Shown here one piece after another: positions 9,801-34,707 of a stretch of 34,707 nt of DNA. Position 1 is the first letter of the stretch; every line of letters starts with the position of its first letter. The notes under the pieces were generated by a model. It saw nothing but the letters and a program-made list of their open reading frames with translations. It was not told where the DNA came from and ran no database searches. Origin of the DNA: a virus; IMG/VR virus record IMGVR_UViG_3300030102_006008, positions 1-34,707 of that record; one strand, given 5' to 3'. A program made the position numbers and the translations under genes.

Positions 9801-12800
9801 AATGAACCATTTACCATTGTAATTGGCAGATTCTTGGGGAATGCGAATTCATTCATGTCAACACTTTCCATGAAGACATAATACTTTGTATTTGGTTTCA
9901 GTTTCTTAGCAGTTACATGAATATTTCTGGAACGACAGTTATGGAGAGTTTCTATTCCAATAACTCTGTCTCCAAGACTGACCTCTTCCAATCCAGAAGA
10001 AAGTTCAAGACCAAATACTCTTTCTTCACCAGTTTCAAAAGCAGTATCTACAAAATCATCTCTGATAGTAGCACTCCACCAACTACTTTCAGTAGTCGTG
10101 GTTGTTGTAGTTCTACGACGACCTCTTCCTGGTTCAAACGCCGATAGAGAACTGCTGGTGCTGGTGCTGGTGCTGCTACCGCTTGAAGAACTAAGTGTTG
10201 TGCTGTTAACTAGTTCAGTATCAAACACTCTATCATCACCATTCCAGGTGAATTCAGAAGAATTCCACCAACTTGCTGCCATTCCACCGTTCTCACGATC
10301 TTCGACGGCAAGCAGTTCCGCCATACCATTGAATACGGAATCAACCTGAACAATATCGGGAGTAGCAAGAACAATCTCTTCAATCCAGTAGTCTGTAGCA
10401 GGAGACAGGTCGATTGAACCAGCATACAGTGCAATGTGATATGGATTCAGGTTTTCTGTTCTAGTTGCAAGTGGTTGATCAATGAATTCTACTTCTTCAA
10501 AGTTAAGAGTAAGTCCAGGACCCTTTCTGGTTACATTAACATCAGAGAAATCATCTGCCCAAGCGTAATCGGCATCTGTGAAGTTTGCTTCAGTCGATAC
10601 GGTTTCAAACTGCAGAGTAACGTTTCTTTCGGCAGAACGTGGACGTAATTCAGCACGTTTGATGTCAATATCAAATCTTGATTCACCTTGCAGGTTAGCA
10701 CCACTGTGATTTCTGAAGTTATCTACAAAGAAACCAGACTTAAACTTATCCAGTCCAGTATTAGGATCCTTGATTGAAAGATTCTTAGTATCAGTTTCAA
10801 GCAGGGAAAGTGTAGTATAATTTTCAAGATTCTTAACTCTATTCTCAATTCCACTAATATCCTTCATGGTGAATCTCTTATGAGGAATAAGTTTCAGAGT
10901 AGTGTCATAAGTCGCATTGAACACATATGGGTCCATAGTGATAACAGCGACCTCAAATCCTTCGGTGTTACCAACTGGTAGTTTTGGAAACTCTGCAGGT
11001 TCTCCTTGCTTAATTAAGAACTCTCCATCCTTAGTTAAATACAGTCTATCAATTCTTCCAAGATAATGAGAATAGTCAACAACAAGAGTTCTATCGGTTA
11101 CTGCAGTTTCAGAGTTTGAATTGGAGAATGATCTTGATTCAAATGCGAATGGAGAATCAGTTGAATTGAGAGCATATGTATTTGCCCTTGGTCTCAGGTC
11201 AATGAAGTCTGATATTCTGAATCCACTAACTTCTGGAACTTCTGATGTGAAATTGAGATTATTATAACTGTTGACAGATTCTACTGTTCCAGTGCCCTCA
11301 TCAGTAGTAAGATGATCAAAGACAACTCTCAATTGTCTAGTTGGTTCAGCAGCATCTGCGTTTCTTTTAATTCTTGAAATATCACAGAATTCTGCTCTTT
11401 GACCAGCATCTAGACTGTAGTCATAACTTACATTTCTATCACCAACAACAAGTGTGTTAATATTTGCAGTGATAGAAGAACTTTGCAGTGTAATTGTTTC
11501 TAACAACTCGAAAGTTCTATCATTCTCATATACAAAGTTGAGTTGGTTGCCACTTACGACATCAACAACACGAGCAACTGCACCTGAGGTTGCACCAACG
11601 ATTTGTTCTCCAACAACTACATTATTAGAGAATGTGTCACTTTGAGCAGAACCAATAAGGGATGGAAGAGTTGGAGCATTAGCATCATTAGATTCAAATA
11701 TACCAAGAACTCTGGTAACTTCTGGAACATTCAGTGAAATACTTTCATCCTGAACTCTTGTTCCGAATGGGAATGCTTCTGAGAAGGTCAGTCCATCATC
11801 GAACGTTGTAGCACCGGCACCAGCACCTTGAATTCTGGATCTTGATATAACTAAGTTAGCACATCTTGTGATGTTCTTTGTTTTAGAAGTAAGAGTGCTT
11901 CTTCTACAAGTAATAGTAAGCACTGCATTATTACCAGTCTGACTAAGACCTGTAATCTGAATTTCTTTAAGAGTAGAGGAAATTGTAACCTGAGATGGAA
12001 GAATAATTTCCTTATGACCATTTGCAAAGGTCAAACTATAATTTTCTTGATTGTAGGGTTCTAAGAACAGAGTATCATCACCAAGGTCATTTATGTTAAA
12101 TGTAAGTGTAGTTGCAGTAACATTAAGAGTTCTTTGCTTTCTTACAATGTAACTACTATCAAGAAGATTGATAGACGAAATAGAAGTATTAGGGAGTTTG
12201 ATTATTTTCCCTGGAGCATTTCCTTTTTCAATAAAACCTTGAACAACATTAAAGTTCTGAACATTATCAAGAGCACCACCATTGGCAGCCTTTACTGTGC
12301 CACCAGTGTTCACACCAACTACTGTACTAACGCCAACTAAGGTGAGTGAACCAGCACTAACTGCGCTTACTCTGTTGAATGTAGGCAGAGTTTGACCTGG
12401 AATGGTAAATGAAACAATATCATTGACCCTGACAGGAACGTTTCTGAAGTCTCCAACAGATGGTGATGTTACAGCACTACCAGAACCAGTATCTGCTCCA
12501 ATTTGGAATGCCGAACCGGGTTCAATGAGATTCGTAGCCTGCTGCATCGAAACGTTGCAAGCAAAATTTGTTGCACCGATAGACTTGACATCACGAATAT
12601 CATTATCCCTGACTACTGTGATGTTTCTACCTACAGCAAGTCCATCGATTTCAATTGGTTCGTTAATTTGGAACTGACCAGTTACGTCTAACAGATTGAG
12701 AACTGTTCCAGCTGTAACTGCATCCTTAAGATGACCAGTTGCTCCACTGAATACACCTCTAACATGTGCTGCATTTCCAGCGGTAACTGCAAGTCCAAGT

Positions 12801-14221
12801 GTTATAGTGGTAAAAGTTTGAATATCGTAGAGTCTTAAATCAAACCTTTCTGTACCAACACCTGCTATATTTCTCTTACTGATATCATAAACTCTAGCAT
12901 TACCGACAAGTGCTGCTGCACCATCAATAGTTCCATCCTGGGCAAGTCTACGATCTCTGAGTTCTACTATACTATTATTGGTGAATCCAATAGTTGGTTG
13001 ACCCCTTAGGTTTTCTACCTGAAGATTGTTTCCAATTTTAACTGGAACACTGATATTATTTTTCTTCTTAGTAGTTCTTGGTTTGGGACTATCAAGTGAA
13101 GTTGAACTAATTTTCTCAACTTCGTATCCTTTTACGTATGCTTTACCAGAGGATATCTGAAGGGTGAGAAGGTCGTCAGAAGGAGTGTTACCTCTCTGGG
13201 TTAATTGACCTGGAGCATAGATGCCCTTATTGCCAAGTCTATCATTTAAAGTTTCTCTGATATCAATAGCAAATTTCTTGACGTAATAATCACCAGATTC
13301 GTCAAAAGTTCTTCTTGCAAGTTCGTCTTTGAAAATATTATAATCAGTTCTATTGACTAACTTCTGAGCAATACCATCTTCAACACGCAACAATTCTACG
13401 AAATTCGCATCGTTATTGTCTTTGAGTGTTTTCTTGACCAGAGTTGCAGACAATCTAAGTCTGTCTGCACCAGGAGCAGATTCGTTTGAGAATCCCTTGG
13501 CATTGTCAAACAAGTCTGGATTTACAGAAGAAGCAGTTAAGATATCTTCTGAAATTTGAAGACCAACCTTATAATTAGGTCTATTTGTATACTGATCCAG
13601 GATTACAGTCGCTGGAGATACTTTTACAAAGAATCCTCTAACAAAGAAAACTCCCTCATTAATTGAAGCAGAAGAACCAATCTTTGTCGCTTCGGATACA
13701 ATTGCTCTTGCAAATGGATTATTTGCAGTAATAGTAGTAGAAGAATAGTTAATATCTTCTAATGTAATCAGAGTTTCACCATCTGTAAATTTAGTTGATG
13801 CACCATCAATTCCAGAAGAAGTATACTTGACATAAAGAGTGTCTACATTATCAACTGATTCGGTGCTCGAAAGGCAATTAACAACAGTTGCTTTAACACC
13901 AGAAGTCTCACCTTGAATCTCAATGTTATTATCTTTAAGGTATGCAGTGTACGCAGAAACAGGAACGTCTAAGAAAGTAGGATCAATCTTAACTGCAGGA
14001 TAGACTGAATCGTAGAATATGCCGCCAGGGACAATCATTGACCCTTCTTTAAAGAAGTGCTGTCCAAATTTCTCAATCTGTCCTTGTAGGATAGACTGTA
14101 ACGTAGTTAGTTCTCTGGATTGAATTGGAAATCCAGGTTTGAACAATACCTTATTATAATTCTTATCCTCATCAAAATCGTCAAAATAAGGCGATACATT
14201 GAGATTGGTGTTCTGGGTCAT
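6854..14221 (-). CDS. Giant DUF4815-type baseplate/tail structural protein
   Basis: This 2455-aa virion protein opens with the DUF4815 hallmark: VSPYFDDFDEDKNYNKVLFKP, then GFPIQSRELTTLQSILQGQIEKFG and HFFKEGSMIVPGG (about residues 8-70). Alternating beta regions follow. A Ser/Thr-rich low-complexity linker lies near residues 1340-1375 (runs of S, then RGRRRTTTTTTTES), and a second Ser run comes just before YFDPLAQSFLI (about residue 1687), the conserved start of a second block with GEVYFKTKDPTVPVTVQIR. A GxGY unit (about 1970) and an EIIGY...DGSLKSNH module (about 2060) are shared with gp14 and gp15. It lies after gp8, where T4 has genes 9-12, so it may replace wedge-periphery or fibre-attachment proteins; that role is inferred. 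ATG 14221 lies 4 bases after the gp8 stop. Confidence 0.82.
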   Translation of the reverse strand: MTQNTNLNVSPYFDDFDEDKNYNKVLFKPGFPIQSRELTTLQSILQGQIEKFGQHFFKEGSMIVPGGIFYDSVYPAVKIDPTFLDVPVSAYTAYLKDNNIEIQGETSGVKATVVNCLSSTESVDNVDTLYVKYTSSGIDGASTKFTDGETLITLEDINYSSTTITANNPFARAIVSEATKIGSSASINEGVFFVRGFFVKVSPATVILDQYTNRPNYKVGLQISEDILTASSVNPDLFDNAKGFSNESAPGADRLRLSATLVKKTLKDNNDANFVELLRVEDGIAQKLVNRTDYNIFKDELARRTFDESGDYYVKKFAIDIRETLNDRLGNKGIYAPGQLTQRGNTPSDDLLTLQISSGKAYVKGYEVEKISSTSLDSPKPRTTKKKNNISVPVKIGNNLQVENLRGQPTIGFTNNSIVELRDRRLAQDGTIDGAAALVGNARVYDISKRNIAGVGTERFDLRLYDIQTFTTITLGLAVTAGNAAHVRGVFSGATGHLKDAVTAGTVLNLLDVTGQFQINEPIEIDGLAVGRNITVVRDNDIRDVKSIGATNFACNVSMQQATNLIEPGSAFQIGADTGSGSAVTSPSVGDFRNVPVRVNDIVSFTIPGQTLPTFNRVSAVSAGSLTLVGVSTVVGVNTGGTVKAANGGALDNVQNFNVVQGFIEKGNAPGKIIKLPNTSISSINLLDSSYIVRKQRTLNVTATTLTFNINDLGDDTLFLEPYNQENYSLTFANGHKEIILPSQVTISSTLKEIQITGLSQTGNNAVLTITCRRSTLTSKTKNITRCANLVISRSRIQGAGAGATTFDDGLTFSEAFPFGTRVQDESISLNVPEVTRVLGIFESNDANAPTLPSLIGSAQSDTFSNNVVVGEQIVGATSGAVARVVDVVSGNQLNFVYENDRTFELLETITLQSSSITANINTLVVGDRNVSYDYSLDAGQRAEFCDISRIKRNADAAEPTRQLRVVFDHLTTDEGTGTVESVNSYNNLNFTSEVPEVSGFRISDFIDLRPRANTYALNSTDSPFAFESRSFSNSNSETAVTDRTLVVDYSHYLGRIDRLYLTKDGEFLIKQGEPAEFPKLPVGNTEGFEVAVITMDPYVFNATYDTTLKLIPHKRFTMKDISGIENRVKNLENYTTLSLLETDTKNLSIKDPNTGLDKFKSGFFVDNFRNHSGANLQGESRFDIDIKRAELRPRSAERNVTLQFETVSTEANFTDADYAWADDFSDVNVTRKGPGLTLNFEEVEFIDQPLATRTENLNPYHIALYAGSIDLSPATDYWIEEIVLATPDIVQVDSVFNGMAELLAVEDRENGGMAASWWNSSEFTWNGDDRVFDTELVNSTTLSSSSGSSTSTSTSSSLSAFEPGRGRRRTTTTTTTESSWWSATIRDDFVDTAFETGEERVFGLELSSGLEEVSLGDRVIGIETLHNCRSRNIHVTAKKLKPNTKYYVFMESVDMNEFAFPKNLPITMVNGSFKTGDIVSSVSLAQVGAPQIKFRAAQHNHEIGPFNNPQVTIPGRSANYSGTSEFINIDLADLSNQTKPEHLGFVKKGMFIVNSDGTAEAQIGETQLITDDKGELQFSLHIPDPVVAANPKFTTGSSTIRITSSPVNSPVLDPGGSSAETEYLSSGYATSYEEQVLAIKSPEVDRRFVESLDAIRLTQNERSQTRVESGSSSSSSSTSVTGEYFDPLAQSFLITAENDNGTESDGIYVTGGEVYFKTKDPTVPVTVQIRTMRDGTPTTQVVPFGQVNIASNDVNLSDDGSAATTFSFPTPVYLQTGYEYALVLIAPTEKYLAFITRMGEEDLQLKAVYNKQPYLGSLFKSQNQSTWTPSQLEDLKFKLNKAKFVTNTPVSVSFYNSELPRVGIRKINPIQSFSKRQFVGIPTSTVNYEPGNSLVQGTTTGNVFATGSRCGLVGMTTALVQPTAGVGLTDNVYTGIGFTSLTGFGVSCTANVTVSGGVVTQIQIANGGVGYQVGDLLLMNQLGSTGSGVRVTVGVATVTNLIVVDDVKGSFASGSAYNFVDNNGTSTAQPAIQFVNDDPIRDGKTMLFSHFNHGMHSSQNKLRVYNVASDVAPTTLTAAFNEGDTVIKVTDGTAFANFEGAAVGTGNTGYLQIDQEIIGYQTISGNDITVSERVVDGSLKSNHAQNSTVFKYESNGVNLLKINTLHNIDPRAKTFNSYHVSLDNTAKLFDATKAIGGNNVQITQNIPFEYIRPNINLVSPSGTSVSARIRTTTGTSISSNEASFTNTGYEGVTLNQLNRLDSPRLVASQVNETALLNGEKSFELEMLLSTTDENVSPMVDLDTTNIVAISNLINDPQVDYDIDSRVNVPGFDPNSAIYETKRINLEFTSNSIFVQLDGHRMGESQIRVFYRLFRNDENETGQTYIPFNGNGLSDNTVNPNKNENGFSEYKYTAENTPQFNGFQVKIVMTSPDQSEAPRIKNLRAIALRTFDSPV

Positions 14222-15788: not shown

Positions 15789-18700
15789 TTAGTACTCTGC
15801 TTTTAGTTCAGTAATTCGTGAAACGTGTGCAGAAGTAGTAACTCCAGAAAGTGGATTGTCTTTTTGGAATACAAACGATGATCCATTTCTAGATCCTGTA
15901 ATGATTTTACCCCAACTGAAGTTTCCATATCTCTTAATATTGAAGTTATCGGGTAAAGCAGTGTTTACTCCTACAACAGAGAGAACATTTGCAGATACAA
16001 GTTTTGCATCTGTTCCAGCAATAGCAACAACGTTTGAAGCACGATAAACATTATCAATGAAATCTGCTCCATTTGCAACGACAGTAGATACATCTCCATC
16101 AATTGAAGTAACACCACTACCAATTCTAGTATTTCTGACTACGAAATAATCTCCTGTAGAAATACCGGTGCTTGTGACCTTGTTTGCTGCTGAAAGTCCT
16201 GAGGGAATGAAAATCTCTGGGTCTGGTATAACTCTAAACTTAAGTGTGTCTAATGAGTCAATTGCGCCAGATTCACCAGAGGCAAACTCTGTGATATCTT
16301 CAATAAGTCCGTAGTCACCTTCATATGTAACTTGCTGAATCGTTTCAACAGTTGGAATAGTCAATCCAATTCCAGTTGCTCCTACAAGTCTGATATCCTG
16401 TTGTGTTTGTCCAAGGTTATCAATTTTTTCAAATGACCAGGCATTTTCAACAGATATTGAAGTGTCCGTATCACCAACAGGTGCGATAATATTAGTTGAT
16501 GGATAATACTGTGGTTCAAGAGAGTTTCTTGCTTTTGAGATAGAACGACCATCAATAATAACGTCAGAAGTTTGTTTGGTCCATTCTACAGGTCTCAGGA
16601 ATGCAGTATCGGTATTGATGCCAACACCTGTATAAGTTTCAGTCTCAACAGTATCAGAGGCAATTAATTCATAGATAACTCTCTGTTCCTGACTAGCAAA
16701 AGGATCTTGATATTGGAGTCTCAGTCTGTCACCACGTTTGATTGTCTCATCAATATCAACTTTAAGGAAGTCATCTTCAGAACCAGTATAGAAGTAAATT
16801 TTAAAATTACTTCCTGCTCTTGGTGCTTCTTTAAACTTAAGTCTTGTGCCACCATTGAATTCATAATCAACTCCTGGTTTTTGGAGAACATCATTCATGA
16901 ATATTAAGAAGTTATTTTGGAGTATGATACCAGAACCTTCTTTGGCAACAATACTGTAGAATTCTTTGGTGGTTTCTGTTCTGGTGATGAGGAAGTTAGT
17001 TTTAGCACCATTAAATCCGATACTAAAATCGTCTAACTCAAGAAGTTGACCAAATGCCCATCCAGAGAACTTATCTTGGAACTTGTTATCAACAGTTACC
17101 AGCATATTGGTAGAACCAATTCCAACCGGATCGAATGGTAGACCACTCAATTCAAGAACATCACCCTCTTTGTATCCAATGCCACGCTTAGACATACTGA
17201 AACTAATAATGCTACCGCCAGTTCCAACAACAACGTCCATCTCAGCACCAGAACCAGTACCACCCGTCAATGTGAGACCTTTGTATGGTGCAGGTTCGTC
17301 TGTAAATATTTGAGGTGGTGTTGCCTGAGTATATCCAGTACCACCAGATACAACAGTGAATCCGGTGATTGTTCCACCAGCACCAACTGTTGCGGTAACA
17401 GCAGCACCTGTTCCACCACCCAATGTGTCTGCAATCGAGACATTCGGTGCGAATAAGTGACCGCCACCACCAGAACGAACACCGGTACTGCCAACACCAA
17501 CTGTAACTCCAGTAATTACACCAGAACCATTTACTACTGCAACACCGATAGCACGAGCAGGAACAGCATAATTTGTGCCAGAAGTTGCTGTAAACTCATT
17601 GATAATACCACCTTGGGGAAGATCACCAATTGGTCCAGTTCCAGTGAAATCAAGATCCTCTCCGGTATTTGTTTTTACAACTCTATAATCAGATTTCAAG
17701 ATAGAACCAACATCACCAAAGAAAGGTTTCTGGAAGACATTGTTAATCAGAACTGCACCATGACTAGTAGTGATACCAGTTACTGCGACACCACTGCTGA
17801 TCATTGCAAATTGATCAGCAGTACCATTGAAGGATTCGGAAATATCATCAAGAATTATATTTTTATCATAGTTTAATCTATAAAAAATTCTACCTGAGAA
17901 TGTTGATCTAGTTGTTATACCAACAACACCAGCAGGTCCATATGGTGCATCACTGAAGTAAATCTTACCCTGCTTGATCCTGTAATCGCCTGTAACGACG
18001 CTGCTAGCAGCACCAACAGTATGTGCAGCAGCAACTGTTCCCATTGCTCCACGTTGGACATTAAGAACGTTACCTGCGTTTACGAGATCAACTTTAATAA
18101 TCTCCCCATCTTCAAATCGCAGCAAGGACTTACCTAAAATCTTCGATGAATCACTGACTGTAATCTGAGTTGAACCAATTCCAACTGCCTCAGACATAGT
18201 GATAGCAACACCTACTGGTTTTACTGCAATAGGACTTTGTATGATATTGTCAATCGTGATCATACTTCTAGTAGTTGCAAGATCACCCTCGGTAGAGAAT
18301 GATTGAGTTGAACCAATACCAACACTATTAGTAAATGATACAAATCTTCCAAGTGCTAAGTCTGCTGTACTAATAGCAACTTTAAACTGGTCCTTAGTTA
18401 CTCTTATTGCAAATACCTTATCTGGAAGAAGAGTGGTAAGACCAATGCCAGGAACACTGGTAGATCCAATACTCAAACGAGATCCAGTATTGATACCAGC
18501 ATTTGTTGGATCATATACAAGTTCTTCACCAGTATTAAATTCATGATCTGTAATTGTGATTACACTGCTGCCAACACCAGTCGCAGGATTGACTGTATGG
18601 TGAAGCATTGACTTACCATCAGTTAATATGGTAAAAGTGCTCAGACCAACAAGTTGACCAGCAGAGTTTCCAACACCATTAAATTGAGGACCAATATCAT

Positions 18701-21700
18701 CAATCATTAGAACTTTATTAGTTCTGGATTCATTGTAATCAGTAATTACCTTAGAATCAAATTTGATGATCTTAGAAAGTCCTACTGATTCTGTATCTTC
18801 TGAAGCAAGATCATAACTTGTTCTTGAATGTACCGATGCTTCATTTTCAATATCCACCAGAAGATTAAACTGTGCTGTGTCCGCAATTGAAACATTTGCT
18901 TTCTTTGGCGGGAAAGTAATAATTTGGAAGTCTGAGAAGTTCTTATACCCAGCAGTATGGTCTAAACTATCAACAGTCTCTTCCCAAGTTTCTAGTGGAA
19001 TTTCACCACGGATACTGTATGAGAATCTTTGATAGTAATCATTATCATGAATTCTTTGGAGATTGTCATTCATTTTACCAATATCATCTTTCCACACCCC
19101 AGCATCTCTTGAAGTGCTTCCCACATTAAAATCAAAGTCGAACTCAGTAATTTCAGAAATAGTTGCTTTAAAGTTACCTACGGTGCCACGAACAACTGTA
19201 TCCGCAGTGAACTTACCATTGACACCATTCAATCTCAGTATGCCTGATTCTTCATCCCATCCATCTTGTGCTACAATACCAAATATGTTTGGATCATTAG
19301 CATCAACAATTATTTCTCCTTCTGTGAATCGAATGACATCAAATTCTGGTTTGAATGTTGCCAGATCGGTTGCTTTAATTACTCTACCAAACTGTGCATT
19401 CTGAGCAATGTTATAGTCTCCACCGGTAAAACCTAAACCAGTAATATTATAACTAACACTTTCAGTACCAGCAACAGTATTGATAGCAGTCACTTCAAAG
19501 GTTCTGAAACCGTAATCACTTGAATTGTATCCGTCTGCAAGAGAAGCATTAGTGATCTGGATGTTTTCTACAAAGATTTGATCTCCCACTTTGAATGGGA
19601 AATTGTCTCCAAATCCAGCAAGAGTTTGTGGTGCTTTGAGTGAAATTTCATTTACACCAGAAGCAGAGGTAGCATTAACAACACCAACTCCATTTGAGTT
19701 ATTGGTTGCAATAACCCTAAGATCTTCTCTCAGATTACTATCACTGGAGATAACTTCAACTTCTCCAACAGAACCACCCTCAAGTGTTGTTTTTGTAATT
19801 ATGCTGTCGTTTCCAATTGCAATAACTTTTGGTGGAACATTGTAATCATTACCAGCAGTAACAATACCAACTCCCTTCAATGTTCTGATATTTTTAAGTC
19901 TCATTACAAGAGAACTATCTGTTTTTGGTTTGATAGTTGTATCTTCTGAGAAATCAATACCAGGAATAGTGACTAATGCATCTGTAACTTCGCCAATATC
20001 TGTATTCGTTATCTTCAAGTCTGCATTGACTCCTGTGGTGGTTCCTATGGATGTAATTGCTGGGAACTCTTTGACGTTATTACCATCATTTACCACCTTA
20101 ACTGAATGAATTCCACCAATAGCAGTTGCTGAACTGGTAGAATAGAATCCAGTGCTGAATCCCGCAGGAGTGTAAGATGTTGTCTCGGCAGAACCAACCA
20201 AAGTAAAGGTAAAGGTAGTATCTCCAATTCCTGTGATCTTATAGTTTTGATTGAACTTAGATTCTACTTTGGTGATAGTAGAGTAATTATCTACAGTTTC
20301 ATCTACAGATGTTGGATATGTGTTTGTATATTGTACATCATCTCCTTCAATCCTATAATAGAAATTATTTAAAAGATCTTTGTCAATATCAACTATAATT
20401 TGTGTACCAGCAACACCGTCACCAATTACTCCGTCTCTCTTAATATTAGTGGATTCGTATCTACACTGGAAGTCATTATCTTTATAGAAATTGATATCAT
20501 ATCCAGAAAGACTTACATCTGAAGTATTCAGTGCAAATCTTCCGCCATTGATAATCTCAATCTTTGGATTTATTTTTGCAACTTCATGAGTTCCATGTCC
20601 TTGCTGAGTAATAATGATATTCTTGAATGGGAACTCCAATGCATCAACTCTTGTTTCTGCAAGTCTAAACGTATCCTCATCAATCTTAATTGCATAATAC
20701 TCTCTACTGCTCTGGAGGGGTGTTGCAACACCAACAGCATTTGTATAAACAACAAGATCACCGGTATTCAATCCGTGTTTTACGGATACGATATCTGATG
20801 CAATAGTTGTGATTCCAGTAGGAGCAAAGGTCTTGGGATCTACAACCAGTTTATTCAGATCTGTATTAAATTTAAGGACAAACTGTTGAACTTTATTAGG
20901 AGTTATACCAAATGTAACTTCATCTCCCAGTTGCAATCCATGAGCAGTTGCAACTCCAACGTCAGCAAATACTTTTCTAACAGTGCCTGTAAGATTATCT
21001 TTTACCTGTTGCAGTGTGTGATTATCTCCTGTAGAAGCAGCAACAAAGTAAATCGTGGAGTTGATACCAACGAATGCCTTAGAAGTTGCAATTCCGATAA
21101 AATCAGTACTTATCTTAAGTGCAAAGAGAGAAGTTGTAGAGATATCAAAGGGATTGGATAAGTCTGACTTTGCAGAAGCACGAATTGTTCCTCCAACAGA
21201 GACAATACTCAGTTGATCACCAGTATTAAACTTGTGTCCAGGAAGGAAAATTGCACGATCTGGAATTGAAACCGTAATATTTGAACTTCCAGCAACTCCA
21301 ACAACAGATGAAAAATAAGTAGCACCTATACCAATAGCAGATTTTGCAAAGTTTTGTTGATGCCCGATCTGTATATTTTTATTTTCTAACTCTTGATCAA
21401 TAATGAATCTGAAAACCTGGGGTTGCAACCTAACGATAGAATTTGTTCCATGATTACTTCCGGTACTATCATTAACGACTCTAGTAACTCTATATTTGTT
21501 GTTGACATTATCAACGCCAACAATCTTCATCAACTCATCATTGACCCTGATAATATTGCCTACTTCAAATTTATTTGTAAATGTAGAAGCACTTAGTGAA
21601 ATTGTAGTAGTAATACCAGTCGCTGTTGTTTGACCAATTGCCAGTGTGGTATTGGTTATTACTGTAGCAACCCCAACAGGAGTAAATCCTTCAAGGTTTT

Positions 21701-24700
21701 TGTAAATTGCAGAACCAATGCCAGTGATTTCAACAATATCACCATCGAAGAAACCATGTGGAATTGTAGTAACACCAGTGACTACATTACCTCTAACACT
21801 AAAGATAGTATTTTTCAGTGTAGTATCAGAAGTTGCAATGGAGACAATATCTTTTCCCTTTACTTCAGCAATTTCAACATCAATTGATTCTTCATTGAAG
21901 TTGATTTGTTCACCAACCTTATAATCAGAACCAGAATTCAGAACGTCAACAGAACCAACCCTGGATGGTTTAATGTCTTGAATGGTAACTTTTACATCAG
22001 AAGACATGGAATCATTTAAGAAGACATACTCCCTAGAAGGATCATTCAATCCGAGGTGAGTTACATTTCTCTTATACTCACCAGTATTGATCGTTGAATC
22101 TGCTTGACTACGAAGAGAATCGTAGTTGAAAGTGTCAGTTTGATTGTAGTGTGACTTTGTAATATATGGATATGCAAGACCAATGATGGAAGAGAAAGTC
22201 TCGGAATTATCTATAGTGGAGAAATATGCATATGTTCCTTCAGGGAATTCATCTGTTTTGCAGAATCTTCCATTATACTCATCAAGATCACCAGTTGCTT
22301 TATAAACATAGTCTTGGATAAAGAATCCATCATCAAATCCAGGTGGTCTGAGTGAAGTAGAACTTTCTAAATCAAGTTCATAACTTGATAACATTACTTT
22401 AGTTCCACCAGTATTTGCACCATCAAATACTGCATTCGCAAAACCATATGGACCATAGATTGGATTACCGTCATATGCCCATCCAACTATTGGGGAGTGA
22501 GCAAATCCTGTGGTGATTTCATCTCCATTACCATCAAGGTTATCTTTTAATATACCACGATAGTGTGCTCCGGGATAGAAAGACACTAACTTGGTTTGTT
22601 TTAGAGGAGTTCCAGAATTAATCTGAACCATCTCTCTATTCAGTCTATCCTTTTTCAGGATTGAAGAATTATCTAGTTGGAGTGCTACTTTATATCTTTC
22701 TACATCATTGAATGCCCATTCATGAATCTCTGGACTCAACTGAGCATTGATACCAGTTGGGATGACTTCTATTCTTGTATTTTCAGCATACCCACTACCA
22801 CCATCAATAACATTGATTGATGTTATTGAACCATTTGTAATATTAGCAGTTAGTTTTGCTAACTTGCCTGTACCAATAACATTAATTGTTGGGGGAGATG
22901 TATATTCTATACCCGCATCTGCAACATATGCTGAAACAATTTTTCCATTAACAACAATTGCTTTAACGTCTGCTCCCTTTCCAGTCTCGACCTTAACTTC
23001 AATGTCTCTCTTGTAGTTCATTACATTGGACACACCGTATCCAACACCACCATTTCTGACAAATACATTGTCAAGTTTTCCAAGGATTACAGGAGAACCA
23101 ACAGCAGTATAGTAAGAAGGAACAACATCAGTATTTCCAGCAGAAACAATTCCATTAATCTTAACAGTGATTGCTGGATACTGGAACGTATGTGTACCGA
23201 CACCCACACTGGTAAGGTTTACATAAGATTTTTTATCAAAATTAACACTACTGATAGCGGTTGGTGTTCCTGCTTCACTTAGGAGGAATCTGTCCTCATC
23301 TAAGACGGTTACCTTGTAATTTGCCGATGTTGACAATCCACCAATAATAGTACCATCAAATGAATACTCTACATTGTCACCAGTTTTGAAAGAGTGATTC
23401 CTTGCGTAGATATAATTCTGCTCAATATTGACACCTACAAAAGATTTGTAAATATCTTTCTGATCTGCTGGTGGCCATGCTATACCATCTACAACCACTT
23501 TCCTACTAGAGAAGTCATCAGTAGAACTTGTAACAACAATTCTGTCAACGATCTTTCTCTGATTTCTAGATCTGAAGTTATGAGTGCCAGTCCCAAAGTC
23601 ATTTATATTGACTGTGTTAATACCAGCTACTGCATCAGATTTTGATACATGGATTTTTACATCAGTGGCACTGACTTTTCTAAGGAAGTATATTGCTTCT
23701 GATGTCAGTCTATCTGTTCCAAATCCAACTGAGGTGCTACCAATACCAATAGGAGTTCCAGTAGAGGAATATATGACCTCTTCAGTATCTGCAAATCTAT
23801 GCCCAGGAATACTGATAACATCACTAGCAAGTTTTACACCATCAAAATCGCTGAATGACTTATCATAGAAGAATCCTCTAAGTCTTGCTTCAGCAGTCGC
23901 TTCTGTTCCATTTCCTCCAGAAATTGTAACAACAGGAGTTTCTACGTAATTAAAACCAGGAGCAGTAAGATTAATATCTTCAATCTTTCCTATAAATTGT
24001 CCCACAAAAGCGGCACCAGCACTTCCATCAGTATTTGCAATTCCAATTTGTGGTGGATTTACAATATCATAACCAGTTCCTGAATTTAAAACATTAATAG
24101 AGTCAATCTGACCATAGAAAATAGAATCCTTTGAAATTGGTGATTGAAATTCAACACCATTTAAAGCAACACCAATTGGTCCAATAATATCTTTATGTTC
24201 AGTTGCTGCTTTTGGTTTTCTATTGATTCTCTTGAAATTATTCTGATTAACCAGATTTCTATTAAACAGAGATGCCGGAGTCAGTTTGTGCTCACTACCT
24301 GCACTAACACCAGTAAAATTAATAAAAACTTGATTATTAAGAGAAGCACGACTGAATGCTAGTTTTATATTGTTTATGTCAATTATAAAAACATAATAAT
24401 TTCCTGTCGCAATACCAGTAACACCAGAGGTTAATTCATAATATACTCTTTCACCATTTCTGAAATTATGATTGGGAATATTGATCTTATTATTAACTTG
24501 ATCTATATCCGATTCAGTAAAAGTTTTAGATCTATTCGTCAGTTCTATGTTATCGTAACCAGGAAGTCCTGAGAAGGCAATATATGCATTCTTGTCTGCA
24601 TCAATAAAACTATTTTGTATATTTGCTAAAACACCATCAGCATTGAGTTTATCAGATCCAAAATCAAGTTTTTTCCTGATGAGATAATCCTTAGTGTTGA

Positions 24701-26450
24701 CAAAAGTATTACTTATATTTCCAGAAACCGTAAATGTTTTTCTGTTGTCTACATCAGAAACATCCAGATTTTCTTCTAATACAGATTTATTATTTTTCAG
24801 CAAAATATCAACTTTGTCGCCCTTGTATAAGTGGTGGTCAACTTCGGTCGTAAACGTTGTTCCACTAACACTATCAACAGACGTAAGCACTACATTGTTG
24901 TAGAACCATCTGTTAAATCTAACATCATCTTCATCTACTTTTTCGCCAAGATGCTTCACTCGAAGCACATCATTTTTTCTGAACTGACTCGTGTCTTTTT
25001 TGTTTTCTGCAACTCCTATGACTGTACCAACAACTCGCATAGTGACGAGTTTGTTGATATCGTTATTCTCATAACCATATACAAAGTTTCCATCAATAAT
25101 TGAATCATTTTCTGCAAGAGTCGTAGAAAGTCCTACACAGTTAAAGAATTGATTAGCACTCTTACTTTCATATGTAACTGATTCCAATCCTTCATTGTTC
25201 TTATTAAGGAATGAACCACTTTCTGGGAATCCAATAGTCGAATCAACAGTTAGAGTTGTATTTGTAACACCAACACCTAAGACTTTAGTCTTCTTGCTGA
25301 CTATAAACTTATTTTCAATAGTATTCTTAGGGAAGAATAACTTATGATAATATGTTGAACCTAAGAGTATAGTTTCAACTCTTGAAATGATAGCCTTTGC
25401 AGTTGGATTATCAATTGATCCCTGAAGTAAAGTAGTTTCTCCAAGATTTCTTGGATTTCCTTCAATTGCCTCTACAACCACCACATCTGACTGCGAGAAG
25501 TCGGCAGCAGATGCCTGAATTGTATTATCAAATGGTTTCAGAACCTCAACGAATTTTCCAAAGAGAACAGTAAAGAGAATTTTCAATGAAGTGTCAGTTC
25601 CCTTTGAACTGTAAAAATCTCTTGCTCTTGAAAGGATATTATCGATATTAACGCTTTGGAATTGCCTCTCTTCAATACCAGGCAAGAACATCTTCTTGTA
25701 CTTGATGAAAAATTCTGCTAAGAATACCAGACCAAGATTAGTAAGAGTCGTTCCTGCTTCATGGAATGCAGTTCGACTATTATTAAAGTTTAAGAACTCT
25801 CCACTGACATCATCAATGCCAGAAAATCCCCTAACACATCCAGTGAAGGCAAAATTGGTAGCAGTAGGAAGAGTTGCACCTAATGGGTTAGTTTCGTCAA
25901 GATCTAATACATCATCAAGAGTAGTTGGGTCATCAGAAATTGTAATAGTGTTAGAATCTATAACTTCTGTGACATAATACGTCTGACCAGCAATAACATT
26001 GGAAAATGAAGTATCAAAAATAATACTTTGCGATCTAAACGAATCTAAACCGACAGTAGATGTCAATTTGATGGTATTTGCAGTCGGATCAACTAAAGTG
26101 ACCTTTTGGGAAAAAGATGATTTACCAGTATACGTAAAAATCTCTTGATCAATTTTTACAAGTCCATTTTTTGGCAAAAATCCCGAATGATTGGTAACTT
26201 CAATCAAATCATCGTTGTTTGAAACAAATTTAGTCAGTTTTGGTGTAGTTGTAGTAAATTTGAGATTTACGTAACTATCAACATCCTTTAATCTATCAAT
26301 ATTCTCTGCAAGAAAGATTGTTCCGTACTCATGTTCCTGAGACAGATAGTATTGCTCTAAAAAGTCTTTAAAGAGTGGATTATCATCTAAAATAAATTCT
26401 GGAAGTTGACTTTCCAGAATATTGGAGATTTTTACTTTACTATCTGACAT
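15789..26450 (-). CDS. Giant baseplate wedge protein, gp7-like (3553 aa)
   Basis: This single uninterrupted ORF fills nearly a third of the window. Its N-terminal region matches T4 gp7's later part: NPLFKDFLEQYYLSQEHEYGT (about residues 24-44; T4 has FEAFCEAYIQYLSDGYGTQ), FLAEFFIKYKKMFLP, and RARDFYSSKGTDTSLKILF (about 270; T4 ESRSYDFYSTKGIEASYKFLF). Position between gp6 and gp8 agrees. The rest is repetitive beta structure: about nine units starting H-x-F/L-x-x-G-D/E-x-V, at least nine GxGY units, and several RGxxGT modules (for example NVQRGAMGTVAAAH). There is a YHYH-like domain at about 1319-1410 (PIVGWAYDGNPIYGP; FPEGTYAYFST) and a NDVLQKPGVDYEF hairpin near 3190. T4 gp7 is 1032 aa. It probably builds and decorates the wedge. 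ATG 26450 lies 3 bases after the gp6 stop. Confidence 0.83.
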   Translation of the reverse strand: MSDSKVKISNILESQLPEFILDDNPLFKDFLEQYYLSQEHEYGTIFLAENIDRLKDVDSYVNLKFTTTTPKLTKFVSNNDDLIEVTNHSGFLPKNGLVKIDQEIFTYTGKSSFSQKVTLVDPTANTIKLTSTVGLDSFRSQSIIFDTSFSNVIAGQTYYVTEVIDSNTITISDDPTTLDDVLDLDETNPLGATLPTATNFAFTGCVRGFSGIDDVSGEFLNFNNSRTAFHEAGTTLTNLGLVFLAEFFIKYKKMFLPGIEERQFQSVNIDNILSRARDFYSSKGTDTSLKILFTVLFGKFVEVLKPFDNTIQASAADFSQSDVVVVEAIEGNPRNLGETTLLQGSIDNPTAKAIISRVETILLGSTYYHKLFFPKNTIENKFIVSKKTKVLGVGVTNTTLTVDSTIGFPESGSFLNKNNEGLESVTYESKSANQFFNCVGLSTTLAENDSIIDGNFVYGYENNDINKLVTMRVVGTVIGVAENKKDTSQFRKNDVLRVKHLGEKVDEDDVRFNRWFYNNVVLTSVDSVSGTTFTTEVDHHLYKGDKVDILLKNNKSVLEENLDVSDVDNRKTFTVSGNISNTFVNTKDYLIRKKLDFGSDKLNADGVLANIQNSFIDADKNAYIAFSGLPGYDNIELTNRSKTFTESDIDQVNNKINIPNHNFRNGERVYYELTSGVTGIATGNYYVFIIDINNIKLAFSRASLNNQVFINFTGVSAGSEHKLTPASLFNRNLVNQNNFKRINRKPKAATEHKDIIGPIGVALNGVEFQSPISKDSIFYGQIDSINVLNSGTGYDIVNPPQIGIANTDGSAGAAFVGQFIGKIEDINLTAPGFNYVETPVVTISGGNGTEATAEARLRGFFYDKSFSDFDGVKLASDVISIPGHRFADTEEVIYSSTGTPIGIGSTSVGFGTDRLTSEAIYFLRKVSATDVKIHVSKSDAVAGINTVNINDFGTGTHNFRSRNQRKIVDRIVVTSSTDDFSSRKVVVDGIAWPPADQKDIYKSFVGVNIEQNYIYARNHSFKTGDNVEYSFDGTIIGGLSTSANYKVTVLDEDRFLLSEAGTPTAISSVNFDKKSYVNLTSVGVGTHTFQYPAITVKINGIVSAGNTDVVPSYYTAVGSPVILGKLDNVFVRNGGVGYGVSNVMNYKRDIEVKVETGKGADVKAIVVNGKIVSAYVADAGIEYTSPPTINVIGTGKLAKLTANITNGSITSINVIDGGSGYAENTRIEVIPTGINAQLSPEIHEWAFNDVERYKVALQLDNSSILKKDRLNREMVQINSGTPLKQTKLVSFYPGAHYRGILKDNLDGNGDEITTGFAHSPIVGWAYDGNPIYGPYGFANAVFDGANTGGTKVMLSSYELDLESSTSLRPPGFDDGFFIQDYVYKATGDLDEYNGRFCKTDEFPEGTYAYFSTIDNSETFSSIIGLAYPYITKSHYNQTDTFNYDSLRSQADSTINTGEYKRNVTHLGLNDPSREYVFLNDSMSSDVKVTIQDIKPSRVGSVDVLNSGSDYKVGEQINFNEESIDVEIAEVKGKDIVSIATSDTTLKNTIFSVRGNVVTGVTTIPHGFFDGDIVEITGIGSAIYKNLEGFTPVGVATVITNTTLAIGQTTATGITTTISLSASTFTNKFEVGNIIRVNDELMKIVGVDNVNNKYRVTRVVNDSTGSNHGTNSIVRLQPQVFRFIIDQELENKNIQIGHQQNFAKSAIGIGATYFSSVVGVAGSSNITVSIPDRAIFLPGHKFNTGDQLSIVSVGGTIRASAKSDLSNPFDISTTSLFALKISTDFIGIATSKAFVGINSTIYFVAASTGDNHTLQQVKDNLTGTVRKVFADVGVATAHGLQLGDEVTFGITPNKVQQFVLKFNTDLNKLVVDPKTFAPTGITTIASDIVSVKHGLNTGDLVVYTNAVGVATPLQSSREYYAIKIDEDTFRLAETRVDALEFPFKNIIITQQGHGTHEVAKINPKIEIINGGRFALNTSDVSLSGYDINFYKDNDFQCRYESTNIKRDGVIGDGVAGTQIIVDIDKDLLNNFYYRIEGDDVQYTNTYPTSVDETVDNYSTITKVESKFNQNYKITGIGDTTFTFTLVGSAETTSYTPAGFSTGFYSTSSATAIGGIHSVKVVNDGNNVKEFPAITSIGTTTGVNADLKITNTDIGEVTDALVTIPGIDFSEDTTIKPKTDSSLVMRLKNIRTLKGVGIVTAGNDYNVPPKVIAIGNDSIITKTTLEGGSVGEVEVISSDSNLREDLRVIATNNSNGVGVVNATSASGVNEISLKAPQTLAGFGDNFPFKVGDQIFVENIQITNASLADGYNSSDYGFRTFEVTAINTVAGTESVSYNITGLGFTGGDYNIAQNAQFGRVIKATDLATFKPEFDVIRFTEGEIIVDANDPNIFGIVAQDGWDEESGILRLNGVNGKFTADTVVRGTVGNFKATISEITEFDFDFNVGSTSRDAGVWKDDIGKMNDNLQRIHDNDYYQRFSYSIRGEIPLETWEETVDSLDHTAGYKNFSDFQIITFPPKKANVSIADTAQFNLLVDIENEASVHSRTSYDLASEDTESVGLSKIIKFDSKVITDYNESRTNKVLMIDDIGPQFNGVGNSAGQLVGLSTFTILTDGKSMLHHTVNPATGVGSSVITITDHEFNTGEELVYDPTNAGINTGSRLSIGSTSVPGIGLTTLLPDKVFAIRVTKDQFKVAISTADLALGRFVSFTNSVGIGSTQSFSTEGDLATTRSMITIDNIIQSPIAVKPVGVAITMSEAVGIGSTQITVSDSSKILGKSLLRFEDGEIIKVDLVNAGNVLNVQRGAMGTVAAAHTVGAASSVVTGDYRIKQGKIYFSDAPYGPAGVVGITTRSTFSGRIFYRLNYDKNIILDDISESFNGTADQFAMISSGVAVTGITTSHGAVLINNVFQKPFFGDVGSILKSDYRVVKTNTGEDLDFTGTGPIGDLPQGGIINEFTATSGTNYAVPARAIGVAVVNGSGVITGVTVGVGSTGVRSGGGGHLFAPNVSIADTLGGGTGAAVTATVGAGGTITGFTVVSGGTGYTQATPPQIFTDEPAPYKGLTLTGGTGSGAEMDVVVGTGGSIISFSMSKRGIGYKEGDVLELSGLPFDPVGIGSTNMLVTVDNKFQDKFSGWAFGQLLELDDFSIGFNGAKTNFLITRTETTKEFYSIVAKEGSGIILQNNFLIFMNDVLQKPGVDYEFNGGTRLKFKEAPRAGSNFKIYFYTGSEDDFLKVDIDETIKRGDRLRLQYQDPFASQEQRVIYELIASDTVETETYTGVGINTDTAFLRPVEWTKQTSDVIIDGRSISKARNSLEPQYYPSTNIIAPVGDTDTSISVENAWSFEKIDNLGQTQQDIRLVGATGIGLTIPTVETIQQVTYEGDYGLIEDITEFASGESGAIDSLDTLKFRVIPDPEIFIPSGLSAANKVTSTGISTGDYFVVRNTRIGSGVTSIDGDVSTVVANGADFIDNVYRASNVVAIAGTDAKLVSANVLSVVGVNTALPDNFNIKRYGNFSWGKIITGSRNGSSFVFQKDNPLSGVTTSAHVSRITELKAEY

Positions 26451-32147: not shown

Positions 32148-33015
32148 ACTTAGTGTTGTTGAAGTTAGCAACACTGAAGACCTTTCGTAAGACTAGTTTG
32201 TATACCTTACTGCCGTAGGAGTAGACATAACCCTCTGCCGTAATCCGATCATATCCGATATAAGCAGCAGGACCGTCGAGAACTCTACACTGATGATGCA
32301 ATTCCTCTTTGACATACTGAACCAAACCGTAGAGGTGCATGAGTGTTACATTGCCGTTAAAGTCCTCGACTCGCAGTGCATTACTCTCACGCAGCGTTCG
32401 GTTCACATTGATGCGAATCTGTGCTGCTTCCTTATCACTCACGAACTGCACGGTAGGTAACAACGTCATGATCGCAGTCATCGCTGGAGGTAACTCCCAC
32501 AGACCCGTGCAAGTAGGCATCACGAACCGGCAGCACACAGTGTTAGATAGTGGTTCACGCAATGGTTTAGCGACGGCATCACGTAGGGTCGTCTCAGTCT
32601 CATAAACCGTATGGGGTGCAACGATAATAACCTCGTCTACGATTTCGGGAAACTTGTAAGTAACTGTGTTCGGAGTATATTCATCACTACCGCCGAAACC
32701 GATAAAGTCACCTTGATAGATGCAATCTGTTTTAGGAAGATAATCTAAGCACAGGTGCAAAATGTTAGCAACCTCTCCGCTGTGGTTAGTATCAATGTCC
32801 TCATGAGATTCGTTGATCTTGATTCTTACTTTGTTGAAGACAGATTTGGTCCCCACAAAGAACTTACCCGTGGCAGGATTAGTGCCCCAAACGATAGCGG
32901 GTGCTCCGTCCATCTTAACACTTAGCGTGCCTTCGTTCTGTATAGCGTCCAGGAAAGAAAGGTCGCCGGTAAGGATAGAATCCTCAGGGTGTTCGATGTG
33001 GAGAATTGGAGTCAT
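32125..33015 (-). CDS. Ligase-like nucleotidyltransferase (KxDG), DUF6267-like
   Basis: This 296-aa protein has the ordered motifs of covalent nucleotidyltransferases (DNA/RNA ligase and capping-enzyme superfamily). Motif I is K34-M-D36-G37 in LSVKMDGAPAIVWG, where the Lys would carry AMP or GMP. A motif-III-like strand is IYQGDFIGFG (99-108). Motif IV is AEGYVYSYG (260-268), and motif V is VYKLVLRKVF (271-280). The opening HIEHPEDSILTG and the K-x-D-G-A/K-P-A core with GKFFVGTKSVFNK resemble the DUF6267 phage family as I remember it. It may adenylate RNA, DNA or another substrate; no separate OB-fold or zinc domain is seen, and length is short for a complete ligase. GC content is high (hand counts of 31/60 and 32/60 in two lines) compared with the baseplate genes. 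Confidence 0.65.
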   Translation of the reverse strand: MTPILHIEHPEDSILTGDLSFLDAIQNEGTLSVKMDGAPAIVWGTNPATGKFFVGTKSVFNKVRIKINESHEDIDTNHSGEVANILHLCLDYLPKTDCIYQGDFIGFGGSDEYTPNTVTYKFPEIVDEVIIVAPHTVYETETTLRDAVAKPLREPLSNTVCCRFVMPTCTGLWELPPAMTAIMTLLPTVQFVSDKEAAQIRINVNRTLRESNALRVEDFNGNVTLMHLYGLVQYVKEELHHQCRVLDGPAAYIGYDRITAEGYVYSYGSKVYKLVLRKVFSVANFNNTKFDKLAAV

Positions 33016-33050
33016 ATTAGAGTGAGAAAAAATGTAAGGAATTAGAGCAA

Positions 33051-33401
33051 TCAGGCAAACACGTAACCGTTGGTGAAATCTTCTACATTGTAGACTTTAC
33101 CAGTGATGGAAGATTCTGCAATGAACTTGCGAACATACCACTTAAAATCTTTCTGAAATACACCTTCACCAGCAATGCAGAAAGCATCACATAAAGCGTT
33201 AAGTCTGCTCTTGGTAGTGTTGCTCTGGAATCCACCATCAAAGATCTTCATAGAGTCCTCATCAACGATGGCGATGAGGTTACCATGCAGGCGGATCAGA
33301 CTCTCGCCGGTTTCCTCGTTGAAGTGAACTGTGGTGTTACCTGAAGACCAATTAGCATTGTTCTGAACTGCTGCGTTCATTTGTGCTTCGATCTTACGCA
33401 T
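33051..33401 (-). CDS. Conserved phage protein with KSRLNAL motif
   Basis: This 116-aa protein starts at ATG 33401 (MRKIEAQMNAAVQNNANWSS). The frame is open 66 codons further to an ATG at 33599, but that part is basic, Pro/His/Lys-rich and holds repeated DNA words and promoter-like sequence, so it is probably leader. The body is a beta-rich domain: NTTVHFNEETGESLIRLHGNLIAIV (23-47), then MKIFDGGFQSNTTKSRLNAL (51-70) and GVFQKDFKWYVRKF (80-93). The F-D-G-G-x-Q-S-N-T-T-K-S-R-L-N-A-L signature is a recurring family in cyanophages, usually of unknown function. AAAGGA lies about 12 bases before the ATG. It directly precedes the KxDG gene. Confidence 0.72.
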   Translation of the reverse strand: MRKIEAQMNAAVQNNANWSSGNTTVHFNEETGESLIRLHGNLIAIVDEDSMKIFDGGFQSNTTKSRLNALCDAFCIAGEGVFQKDFKWYVRKFIAESSITGKVYNVEDFTNGYVFA

Positions 33402-33443
33402 GGTTGGTTGTGTTCCTTTGACTCTTTTAATATACACGGATTT

Positions 33444-33503
33444 GGGGTCCTGTGCCGTGTGCTTGTGCCACTTAATGGATTGGATTTTTTCCGGGGTCCT
33501 GTG
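33444..33503. repeat. Direct repeat GGGGTCCTGTG (two copies)
   Basis: The 11-base word GGGGTCCTGTG occurs at 33444-33454 and again at 33493-33503, 49 bases apart, upstream of the KSRLNAL gene. Flanking GGATT-type bases are also similar. In the open frame through this region the two copies are read in different frames, so the repeat is conserved as DNA, which suggests a regulatory or recombination site. Confidence 0.5.
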
Positions 33504-33615
33504 TGAATTTTTGTGGCGGTTCGGTTTTTTATACTTGACGCCCGTTAGATTACGCGCTAAGACCACAAGACCCGAGCACATTTCTAAGGTCATAAACACT
33601 ACTCAAACACTGCTA

Positions 33616-33655
33616 AGTAACCCCGAAGACACTAGGAATACTCTCCGGGGTAACT
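33616..33655. other. Hairpin in the intergenic leader
   Basis: AGTAACCCCG (33616-33625) pairs with CGGGGTAACT (33646-33655) with one mismatch; three more pairs continue inside after one mismatch. No T-run follows on either strand, so it is not a standard terminator. It lies between the late-promoter motif at 33678 and the next gene, so it would be at the 5' end of a late mRNA. No tRNA features are present. Confidence 0.5.
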
Positions 33656-33677
33656 CTTACTATAAAAAACAGAAACA

Positions 33678-33685
33678 TATTTATA
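33678..33685 (-). promoter_or_regulatory. Putative T4-type late promoter (TATAAATA)
   Basis: Minus-strand TATAAATA lies in the roughly 350-base gap between the 79-aa gene (stop at 33753) and the KSRLNAL gene (start 33401). The predicted leader would be about 270 bases and include the hairpin at 33616-33655 and the direct repeats. The remaining gap holds AT-rich sequence with no further gene that I can support. Confidence 0.5.
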
Positions 33686-33752
33686 AACGTTTTTTTAATC
33701 GTTTTTTATGTGTTTTTGACTGTTTTGGTAAGTATAAGTGCTTAGAGAAGTA

Positions 33753-33992
33753 TCAACTTTGATAATACCAACCCAGTGCCTTGTTAAGTGTAATCAACTG
33801 CTCATGTACGTTGTTAATCTCATCCTGTATTGACTGCTCTTCTCCTAACATTGCCATATGATCTACTTCATTCCAATCCTCTATATCTACCTTGTTATCT
33901 GTAAACATTGGCGTATAGAATAACGTTCCTTCACTATCAATAGAATAGGCACATCCATGCTCTTCTGATGTAAGAATGATTGTGTTAGTCAT
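33753..33992 (-). CDS. Conserved small cyanophage-type protein
   Basis: This 79-aa protein begins MTNTIILTSEEHGCAYSIDS, continues EGTLFYTPMFTDNKVDIEDW and NEVDHMAMLGEEQSIQDEINN, and ends LNKALGWYYQS. An N-terminal beta part with the turn E-E-H-G-C-A-Y-S-I-D is followed by an acidic helical C-terminus. I recall small proteins with the same TSEEHGCAY opening in several cyanophages; their function is unknown. The start is ATG 33992. The gap to the next gene contains TATACT but no matching -35. Confidence 0.62.
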   Translation of the reverse strand: MTNTIILTSEEHGCAYSIDSEGTLFYTPMFTDNKVDIEDWNEVDHMAMLGEEQSIQDEINNVHEQLITLNKALGWYYQS

Positions 33993-34029
33993 GATGATGA
34001 AAGTGTTGAATAGTATAGTTGAGTTGGTA

Positions 34030-34284
34030 TTAGTCTTCTAGAATGTGTGGATAATACTCTTTAACTTCTTCGAGCAATTCTTCTTCGGTATACTTATCAT
34101 AATTGTGATTCATGTAATCATACAAAAGTGATGCCATAGTTTTCAGGTCCATGTCATCAATCATCTGTGTGATTAGATCATCTTGAAGTTCAGAACGATT
34201 CATGAGTGATAGAGTCAATGAAGAAATTAGGATTAAGTCGTTTACTTGATCATCGTAGGTAAAGATATCCTCCTGCCCAATCAC
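34030..34284 (-). CDS. Small acidic helical hypothetical protein
   Basis: This 84-aa protein reads from GTG 34284; an ATG at 34203 would leave 57 aa. The frame opens with IGQEDIFTYDDQVNDLILIS, then LTLSLMNRSELQDDLITQMI, DDMDLKTMASLLYDYMNHNY and TEEELLEEVKEYYPHILED. It is almost entirely helical and acidic. Two hydrophobic helices separated by Asp-rich turns suggest a small helix-bundle protein. The GTG start overlaps the upstream gene's end by 35 bases and has no clear ribosome-binding site, so the N-terminus is uncertain. Similar small ORFs are common in cyanophage early regions; function is unknown. Confidence 0.55.
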   Translation of the reverse strand: MIGQEDIFTYDDQVNDLILISSLTLSLMNRSELQDDLITQMIDDMDLKTMASLLYDYMNHNYDKYTEEELLEEVKEYYPHILED

Positions 34285-34642
34285 ATTTTGCTAGGCATTC
34301 TTCTCTCGATTCAATGATGTTCAAGTTGAAACGTTCGTGCTTAGCAGGTGCTTTATATGATGCTGGTTTGTATACTGATCCAGTCTTTTTATCGATGAAT
34401 GCATGACACGTACGTGATTCTCTTTGTGTATTAGGGCAGATGTCAGCATCCCAGATTTTGTGATACTTACGACCTGAAGAATCAAGGTAGAATCTCTTAT
34501 CTTTGTTGCTGTTAGGATACTGCTTTTGAAAGTCCATTGAAAGTGCATCACATAGCATCATTGCGTACTTTGTGACGTTCAACTGAATTGTGTTTTGTGC
34601 GTCCTTTTGTGCTTTGAAATCGGAGAAAGTTTGATTAGTCAT
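34250..34642 (-). CDS. Conserved hypothetical protein with DKKTGxVYKPASYK motif
   Basis: This 130-aa protein starts at ATG 34642 (MTNQTFSDFKAQKDAQNTIQ); an upstream in-frame TTG is less likely. Key features are VTKYAMMLCDALSMDFQKQY, then DSSGRKYHKIWDADI, then SRTCHAFIDKKTGSVYKPASYKAPA (about residues 75-99) and CLAKCDWAGGYLYLR at the C-terminus. The order G-R-K-Y-x-K, then H-A-F-[IV]-D-K-K-T-G-x-V-Y-K-P-A-S, ending D-W-A-G-G-Y-L-Y-x-R, is a family I recognise from cyanophages and other marine phages, with no known function. Small, basic, with a likely four-stranded sheet. Its ATG overlaps the end of the partial upstream ORF. Confidence 0.68.
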   Translation of the reverse strand: MTNQTFSDFKAQKDAQNTIQLNVTKYAMMLCDALSMDFQKQYPNSNKDKRFYLDSSGRKYHKIWDADICPNTQRESRTCHAFIDKKTGSVYKPASYKAPAKHERFNLNIIESREECLAKCDWAGGYLYLR

Positions 34643-34707
34643 TGAGAAGTTTTTCGATGGAGGAATTGCGTTCTTCGATGATGTCAACCATGTTGGAATC
34701 TAATAAA
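34635..34707 (-). CDS. 3' end of an upstream gene or very short ORF (partial)
   Basis: The frame enters from the right edge and ends at TAA 34635-34637. The visible residues are LLDSNMVDIIEERNSSIEKL, then LND. An in-frame ATG (34689-34691) would give only an 18-aa peptide, so this is more likely the C-terminal end of a gene outside the window. Its stop overlaps the start of the next gene, as is usual here. The coding is too short to assign. Confidence 0.4.
   Translation of the reverse strand, partial: LLDSNMVDIIEERNSSIEKLLND

Follow-up and report, generated by a model that had tools for sequence, protein, structure and literature searches.

Results

The window analysed here is a stretch of 34,707 nt that belongs to a virus contig of 45,957 nt. 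PHROG matches of the proteins near its largest gap and DNA matches to Synechococcus and Prochlorococcus phages identify the source as a T4-like cyanophage. Eighteen proteins near the gap were scanned, and the PHROG families matched included baseplate wedge, neck and head-closure proteins; at the DNA level, 389 records, Synechococcus and Prochlorococcus phages among them, showed some match to positions 32400-34707. In the genes listed from the open reading frame table, the gap at 33402..33752 comprises 351 nt and is flanked by called genes at 33051-33401 (-) and 33753-33992 (-), both of which are transcribed leftward. The next largest gaps measure 156 and 79 nt, in agreement with the original prediction, which had described this as the largest gap among packed genes. 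The gap precedes a phrog_554 gene and, at a distance of about 4.7 kb, putative gp25-like and gp6-like baseplate genes, named from the PHROG annotation 'baseplate wedge subunit' and from the gene order of Syn19. A search of the gap for tRNA and tmRNA found none, and an Rfam scan, searched to E up to 10, gave nothing at gathering score; its single hit in the gap (E 4.8, plus strand) is at chance level. An unlisted frame of 120 codons at 33400-33762 (+) spans the gap and has no PHROG match, and in the public records called genes overlap the element at 52636-52797 of Syn9 and 50699-50824 of Syn19. These called genes and the frame in the window are probably not real genes. Elsewhere in the window, two giant open frames at 6854-14221 and 15789-26450 (-), with 2455 and 3553 codons, occupy the place of giant structural genes of Syn19.

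Several parts can be distinguished within the gap. An AT-rich segment at 33650..33709 has a weak duplex (top 0.13% of the 60-mers of the window) and is a candidate unwinding element. The late element that had been announced at 33678 is indeed there: TATAAATA lies on the minus strand at 33678..33685. An excerpt of PMC2984593 gives NATAAATA as the cyanophage consensus, and TATAAATA, which is on the coding strand and precedes genes, is predicted to be a late promoter of the T4 type. The contig has five exact TATAAATA sites, all of them on the minus strand and three within the window. An inverted box pair, AGTTACCCCGGAG / CTTCGGGGTTACT, follows at 33615..33655 (-), on the site where relatives carry DnaA or other boxes. 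This is the stem of the original prediction; the inverted repeat exists and recurs in relatives, but it is imperfect, a stem of 13 pairs, one of them G-U, with a single U-U mismatch.

The most widely conserved feature, a core of 75 nt at 33513..33587 (-), had been missed. Our core model R1 matched it at 33514-33586 with E 2.9e-13, a value to be read with the window itself being among the 83 model sequences. Within the core there is a dyad, GCTCGGGTCTTGTGGTCTTAGC, at 33556..33577 (-), which may be a hairpin or a protein site, and a weak antisense promoter candidate at 33535..33563 (+), in which TTGACG is separated by 17 nt from TAAGAC and which scores below what most relatives reach. Downstream of the core the reported direct repeat was found as described, with exact copies of GGGGTCCTGTG at 33444-33454 and 33493-33503 (CACAGGACCCC on the minus strand in the latter). 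However, the exact repeat is absent in the close relatives L004, L005 and L006. As an exact direct repeat of at least 11 nt also appeared in 112 of 2000 first-order Markov sequences of the same composition, it is only mildly unusual on its own. The copy at 33444..33454 (-) forms the upstream edge of a promoter-like block at 33406..33475 (-), AAGTGGCACA ... GTGTATATTAAAAGAGTCAAAGGAAC, which would serve the downstream gene and is matched in other cyanophages. This block (GTGTATATTAAAAGAGTCAAAGGAAC with upstream GGCACA motifs) precedes the phrog_554 gene, its best phage matches reach up to 90% over 50 nt (E 2e-9), and a second partial copy lies just past the window at 34843-34874 of the contig. 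Possibly it represents an undescribed class of early or middle promoters.

The gap and its parts are kept in L004, L005 and L006, and the core is common to relatives beyond these three. A 17-mer from the core occurred in 103 virus-contig stretches, some of which were chance hits by eye. With a profile built from 65 seeds we obtained 110 loci at E 1e-5 or better, corresponding to 90 distinct cores including that of the window. Of these, 83 entered alignment A1; two ran off the contig and the near-duplicates or neighbours L210, L017, L198, L154 and L007 were omitted. A BLAST search of 33500-33680 against the phage collection retrieved five records at chance level and is uninformative for the core, which is too short and too divergent for this method. 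In 13 of 16 whole records the core model had exactly one match (E <=0.1; weakest 0.04). These records were chosen by hand, several because a core locus came from them, so that they show the copy number and not the frequency of the element. G001, G002 and P-SSM2 gave no match with the core model, and judged by eye each of them carries a divergent version. G001 is S-RIM50 (100% match), in which the element is located at about 46.6 kb. A 171-nt piece of the S-RIM50 element matched 256 phage records, many being near-identical isolates, and in 176 of the records the match covered 80% or more of the piece.

Extra upstream copies of the core box were present in 9 of 84 elements, mostly in steps of 31-34 bp, and shuffled boxes gave none. 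Tandem boxes at such steps or a multiple of them were seen in L180, L217, L144, L085, L195, L203, L070 and L097; such spacing would suit a protein that binds along one face of the helix. The order of the parts differs between branches: when L011, L066 (Syn9 type) and L125 were compared with L014, L084 and L132, some branches had boxes, AT-rich segment and core, and others AT-rich segment, boxes and core.

The boxes of many relatives are those of the host. TTTTCCACA, which an excerpt of PMC4674748 describes as the box of a cyanobacterial oriC, occurred 61 times in 33,336 nt inside the elements as against four times in 634,283 nt outside. TTATCCACA was found seven times inside and six times outside, and three control 9-mers had 1, 0 and 2 copies inside and 7, 5 and 9 outside. 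At least one exact TTTTCCACA is carried by 33 of the 90 elements. The 16 whole records contained 65 copies compared with 39 of the reversed control, and 18 of these 65 copies were at most 250 nt away from a core match. Eleven clusters with at least two boxes within 100 nt were detected in these records: six at the core match, two at the by-eye elements of G001 and G002, and three farther off by 0.35 to 1 kb (G002, G010 and S-RIM32). Second clusters are located at 61859-61880 in S-RIM32, 46602-46631 in G010 and 52765-52785 in G002. Four records (G006, G009, G012 and Bellamy) have a core match with no adjoining DnaA box. Moreover, when paired boxes were sought independently of the core, 25 of the 80 loci listed from the scan turned out to contain it, a fraction that describes these loci and is no rate for the collection.

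The gap of the window contains no DnaA box even if two mismatches are allowed; its alternative is the inverted pair of GTTACCCCGGAG. Counting one-letter variants, DnaA-like boxes are present in 34 of the 90 elements and missing from 56. Among the latter, GGGTATCT was found in 10, TTCGTATC in 13 and TAGTATCC in 8, and none of the three occurred in the 34 elements with DnaA-like boxes, an enrichment that is post hoc because a k-mer screen of these very elements had guided the choice of boxes. The kind of box in the window, GTWACCCC, occurred in 5 of the 56 and also in 2 of the 34, and is therefore not exclusive to elements lacking DnaA boxes. Every alternative box family tested was absent from 19 of the 56.

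By computed stability, 46 of 71 elements had their weakest 60-mer upstream of the core among the top 0.1% of the locus, compared with 4.4% in the control; for the top 1% the figures were 62 of 71 and 15%. Besides 33650-33709 the contig has six separate, weaker places of this kind. Terminator-like sites were found upstream in 22 of 78 elements (control 5/283).

A first promoter test, with 67 of 90 elements at 9 of 12 or better, was partly circular, as the profile seeds had to contain GTCAA or GGCAA downstream, and it was set aside. For the retest, loci were picked by the 17-mer and the upstream side alone from 80 of the 103 stretches; 61 unique loci passed and 60 were long enough. An antisense sigma70-like promoter scoring at least 9 of 12 was present in 44 of these 60 cores; the forward strand reached this score in 2 of 60 and shuffles in 1.7%. 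In this retest, which made no selection on the downstream side, a TANNNT hexamer stood at spacer 17 or 18 in 39 of 51. The window, whose antisense promoter remains below 9 of 12, and several relatives have TTGACN at 17-18 nt from TAAGAY instead (10 cases). On the gene strand, NATAAATA occurred in 21 of 90 elements, with 0.63 per kb inside and 0.19 outside.

In the window, Syn9, Syn19 and Bellamy the element is conserved upstream of the gp25-gp6 baseplate genes. Its distance past gp5 is about 30 kb in both Syn9 and Syn19, and gp25-gp6 follow after 5.7 kb in Syn9 and after 1.5 kb in Syn19; in Bellamy the baseplate wedge genes follow after about 2.7 kb. The stretches of S-RIM32 and P-SSM2 that were examined stop short of gp25, and gp5 is outside the contig of the window as far as inspected. 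Nucleotide skew was considered as an origin signal and gave no support; neither Syn9 nor Syn19 shows a turn at the element. The turning point of the cumulative GC skew is near 44 kb in Syn9 and near 42 kb in Syn19, with the elements at 52.7 and 50.7 kb, and the G excess is higher where a simple two-way origin would have less. The AT skew at fourfold sites turns at 61 kb (Syn9) and 55 kb (Syn19), at the start of the structural genes. The skew extremes are 5-8 kb or more from the element and coincide with the block of structural genes.

Discussion

We consider it fairly probable that the gap element serves this T4-like cyanophage as a replication origin, of a kind comparable with oriE of T4 and with the bacterial oriC. 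Its single copy, the weak duplex, boxes identical to those of the host in a third of the elements, the inward promoter and a location like that of oriE make this the best reading of the sequence data. Against it stand the window itself, which has no DnaA box and a poor antisense promoter, and the 56 of 90 elements without DnaA-like boxes.

If the element is an origin, an initiator would bind the inverted boxes adjoining the AT-rich segment. In relatives with DnaA boxes this may be the host DnaA; in the phage of the window it would probably be another protein, and we infer that the different boxes of the window are equivalent to the DnaA boxes. Antisense transcription from the early-type promoter in the core would cross the boxes and the AT-rich DNA and could aid opening, and the antisense transcript may leave an RNA primer. 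The phage replisome would load after opening. Later, transcription from the late promoter would cross this DNA in the other direction, toward the downstream genes, and might switch the origin off. In a more specific form of this proposal, which we put forward tentatively and regard as somewhat doubtful, a fixed core is combined with an exchangeable initiator module in one dedicated origin; many lineages would use host DnaA, and others, including the phage of the window, other boxes and another initiator.

In T4, oriE occupies a place between genes 5 and 6, and early and late transcripts cross it in opposite directions. In Syn9 and Syn19 the cyanophage element likewise follows gp5 and precedes gp6, and the element has predicted promoters of both kinds that oppose each other, a likeness of features and place. 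However, about 30 kb separate gp5 from gp6 in Syn9 and Syn19, the boxes of the cyanophages form inverted pairs and not evenly spaced direct 12-mers, and host DnaA boxes are present in one third of the elements. The excerpt of PMC3016281 describes oriE as having 12-nt repeats and an early-mode promoter, syntenic in close T4 relatives, with no established link of the repeats to origin activity. The start primed by a transcript is a model borrowed from the R-loop origins oriF and oriG of T4 in the same excerpt. There the promoters are MotA-dependent middle promoters, whereas cyanomyoviruses are without motA according to the excerpt of PMC2984593. With regard to the cyanobacterial oriC, the relatives resemble it in that their exact TTTTCCACA boxes (box as in the excerpt of PMC4674748) adjoin a weak duplex. 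The element differs from it in lacking an adjacent dnaN, in its few boxes and in its additional core and promoter, and the window has no such box at all. In our literature search we found no description of the cyanophage element and no mapped replication start for T4-like cyanophages, only a prediction by Weigele et al. 2007 that Syn9 has a single theta origin, as cited in the excerpt of PMC2984593. That prediction concerns the same phage family and also claims a single origin, and the element may already be known under it.

The main rival to an origin is a structured late leader RNA. Here, a late transcript from TATAAATA would have a structured 5' leader, or yield a small RNA, with the hairpins of 33615-33655 and of the core, and would regulate the downstream gene or act elsewhere; we rate this as unlikely. 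In the window, the folding data speak for it. The minus-strand RNA of the whole gap folds at -88.4 compared with a shuffle mean of -68.4 kcal/mol (z -3.8) and beats 100 of 100 shuffles; the plus strand is unremarkable (z -1.3, 10 of 100 shuffles equally good). Besides, the window-type box pair changed on both sides in 7 cells among eight sequences as against 3.0 in shuffles, with 1 of 500 as high. This covariation uses G-U pairs, which favours RNA in the branch of the window. Against it, the 83 cores gave no predicted pair in an RNA consensus structure, and a hand-drawn core hairpin barely exceeded shuffles (84.6% of cells paired, a value reached by 11 of 500 shuffles, vs 83.4%). Across ten elements the folding z-scores ranged from 0.3 to -3.5; L175 (-3.5) and L149 (-2.6) would fit a leader, but L084, L224 and L126 folded no better than shuffles. 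Moreover, the late consensus occurs in only 21 of the 90 elements. The non-coding RNA suggested originally is a plausible rival chiefly in the branch of the window. No RNA structure common to the elements emerged, while the boxes, the weak duplex and the promoter are features of DNA.

Boxes for host DnaA need not start replication. They might titrate DnaA or place a divergent promoter pair under its control, and the adjoining promoters and the presence of only 1-4 boxes per matched record are compatible with this. Yet the weak duplex, the core in elements lacking DnaA boxes and the fixed place would be left unexplained, and we regard such a role as improbable. Even less credence is given to an ordinary regulatory gap in which a late promoter, a terminator and an early promoter of adjacent operons are held together by gene order. 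The upstream terminator-like sites and the promoter-like block ahead of the next gene would be expected of such a gap, but not a promoter opposing all neighbouring genes or clusters of host DnaA boxes. 

The complex control region originally proposed is right in its general sense: relatives share the late promoter and the inverted repeat, though L004-L006 do not have the exact direct repeat. By the refuting condition set there, a lack of conservation in relatives, the hairpin holds and the exact direct repeat does not. A recombination site, likewise suggested there, or a packaging site would suit the single match per record and the direct repeats, but we found no evidence for recombination, an exact repeat of this length is close to what chance gives and was not retained in L004-L006, and none of the 18 window proteins scanned matched an integrase family, so that we consider it very improbable.

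T4-like cyanophages are widespread in the ocean, and the short conserved element offers a testable place for the start of their replication. Its role as an origin would explain the recurrent gap, which public records (Syn9, Syn19, S-RIM50) either leave without annotation or fill with called genes. Moreover, the element suggests a direct link between phage replication and the host DnaA in many lineages. If the modular arrangement of core and initiator boxes is true, the replication start of a T4-type phage would be tied to the host initiator and, in some lineages, released from it.
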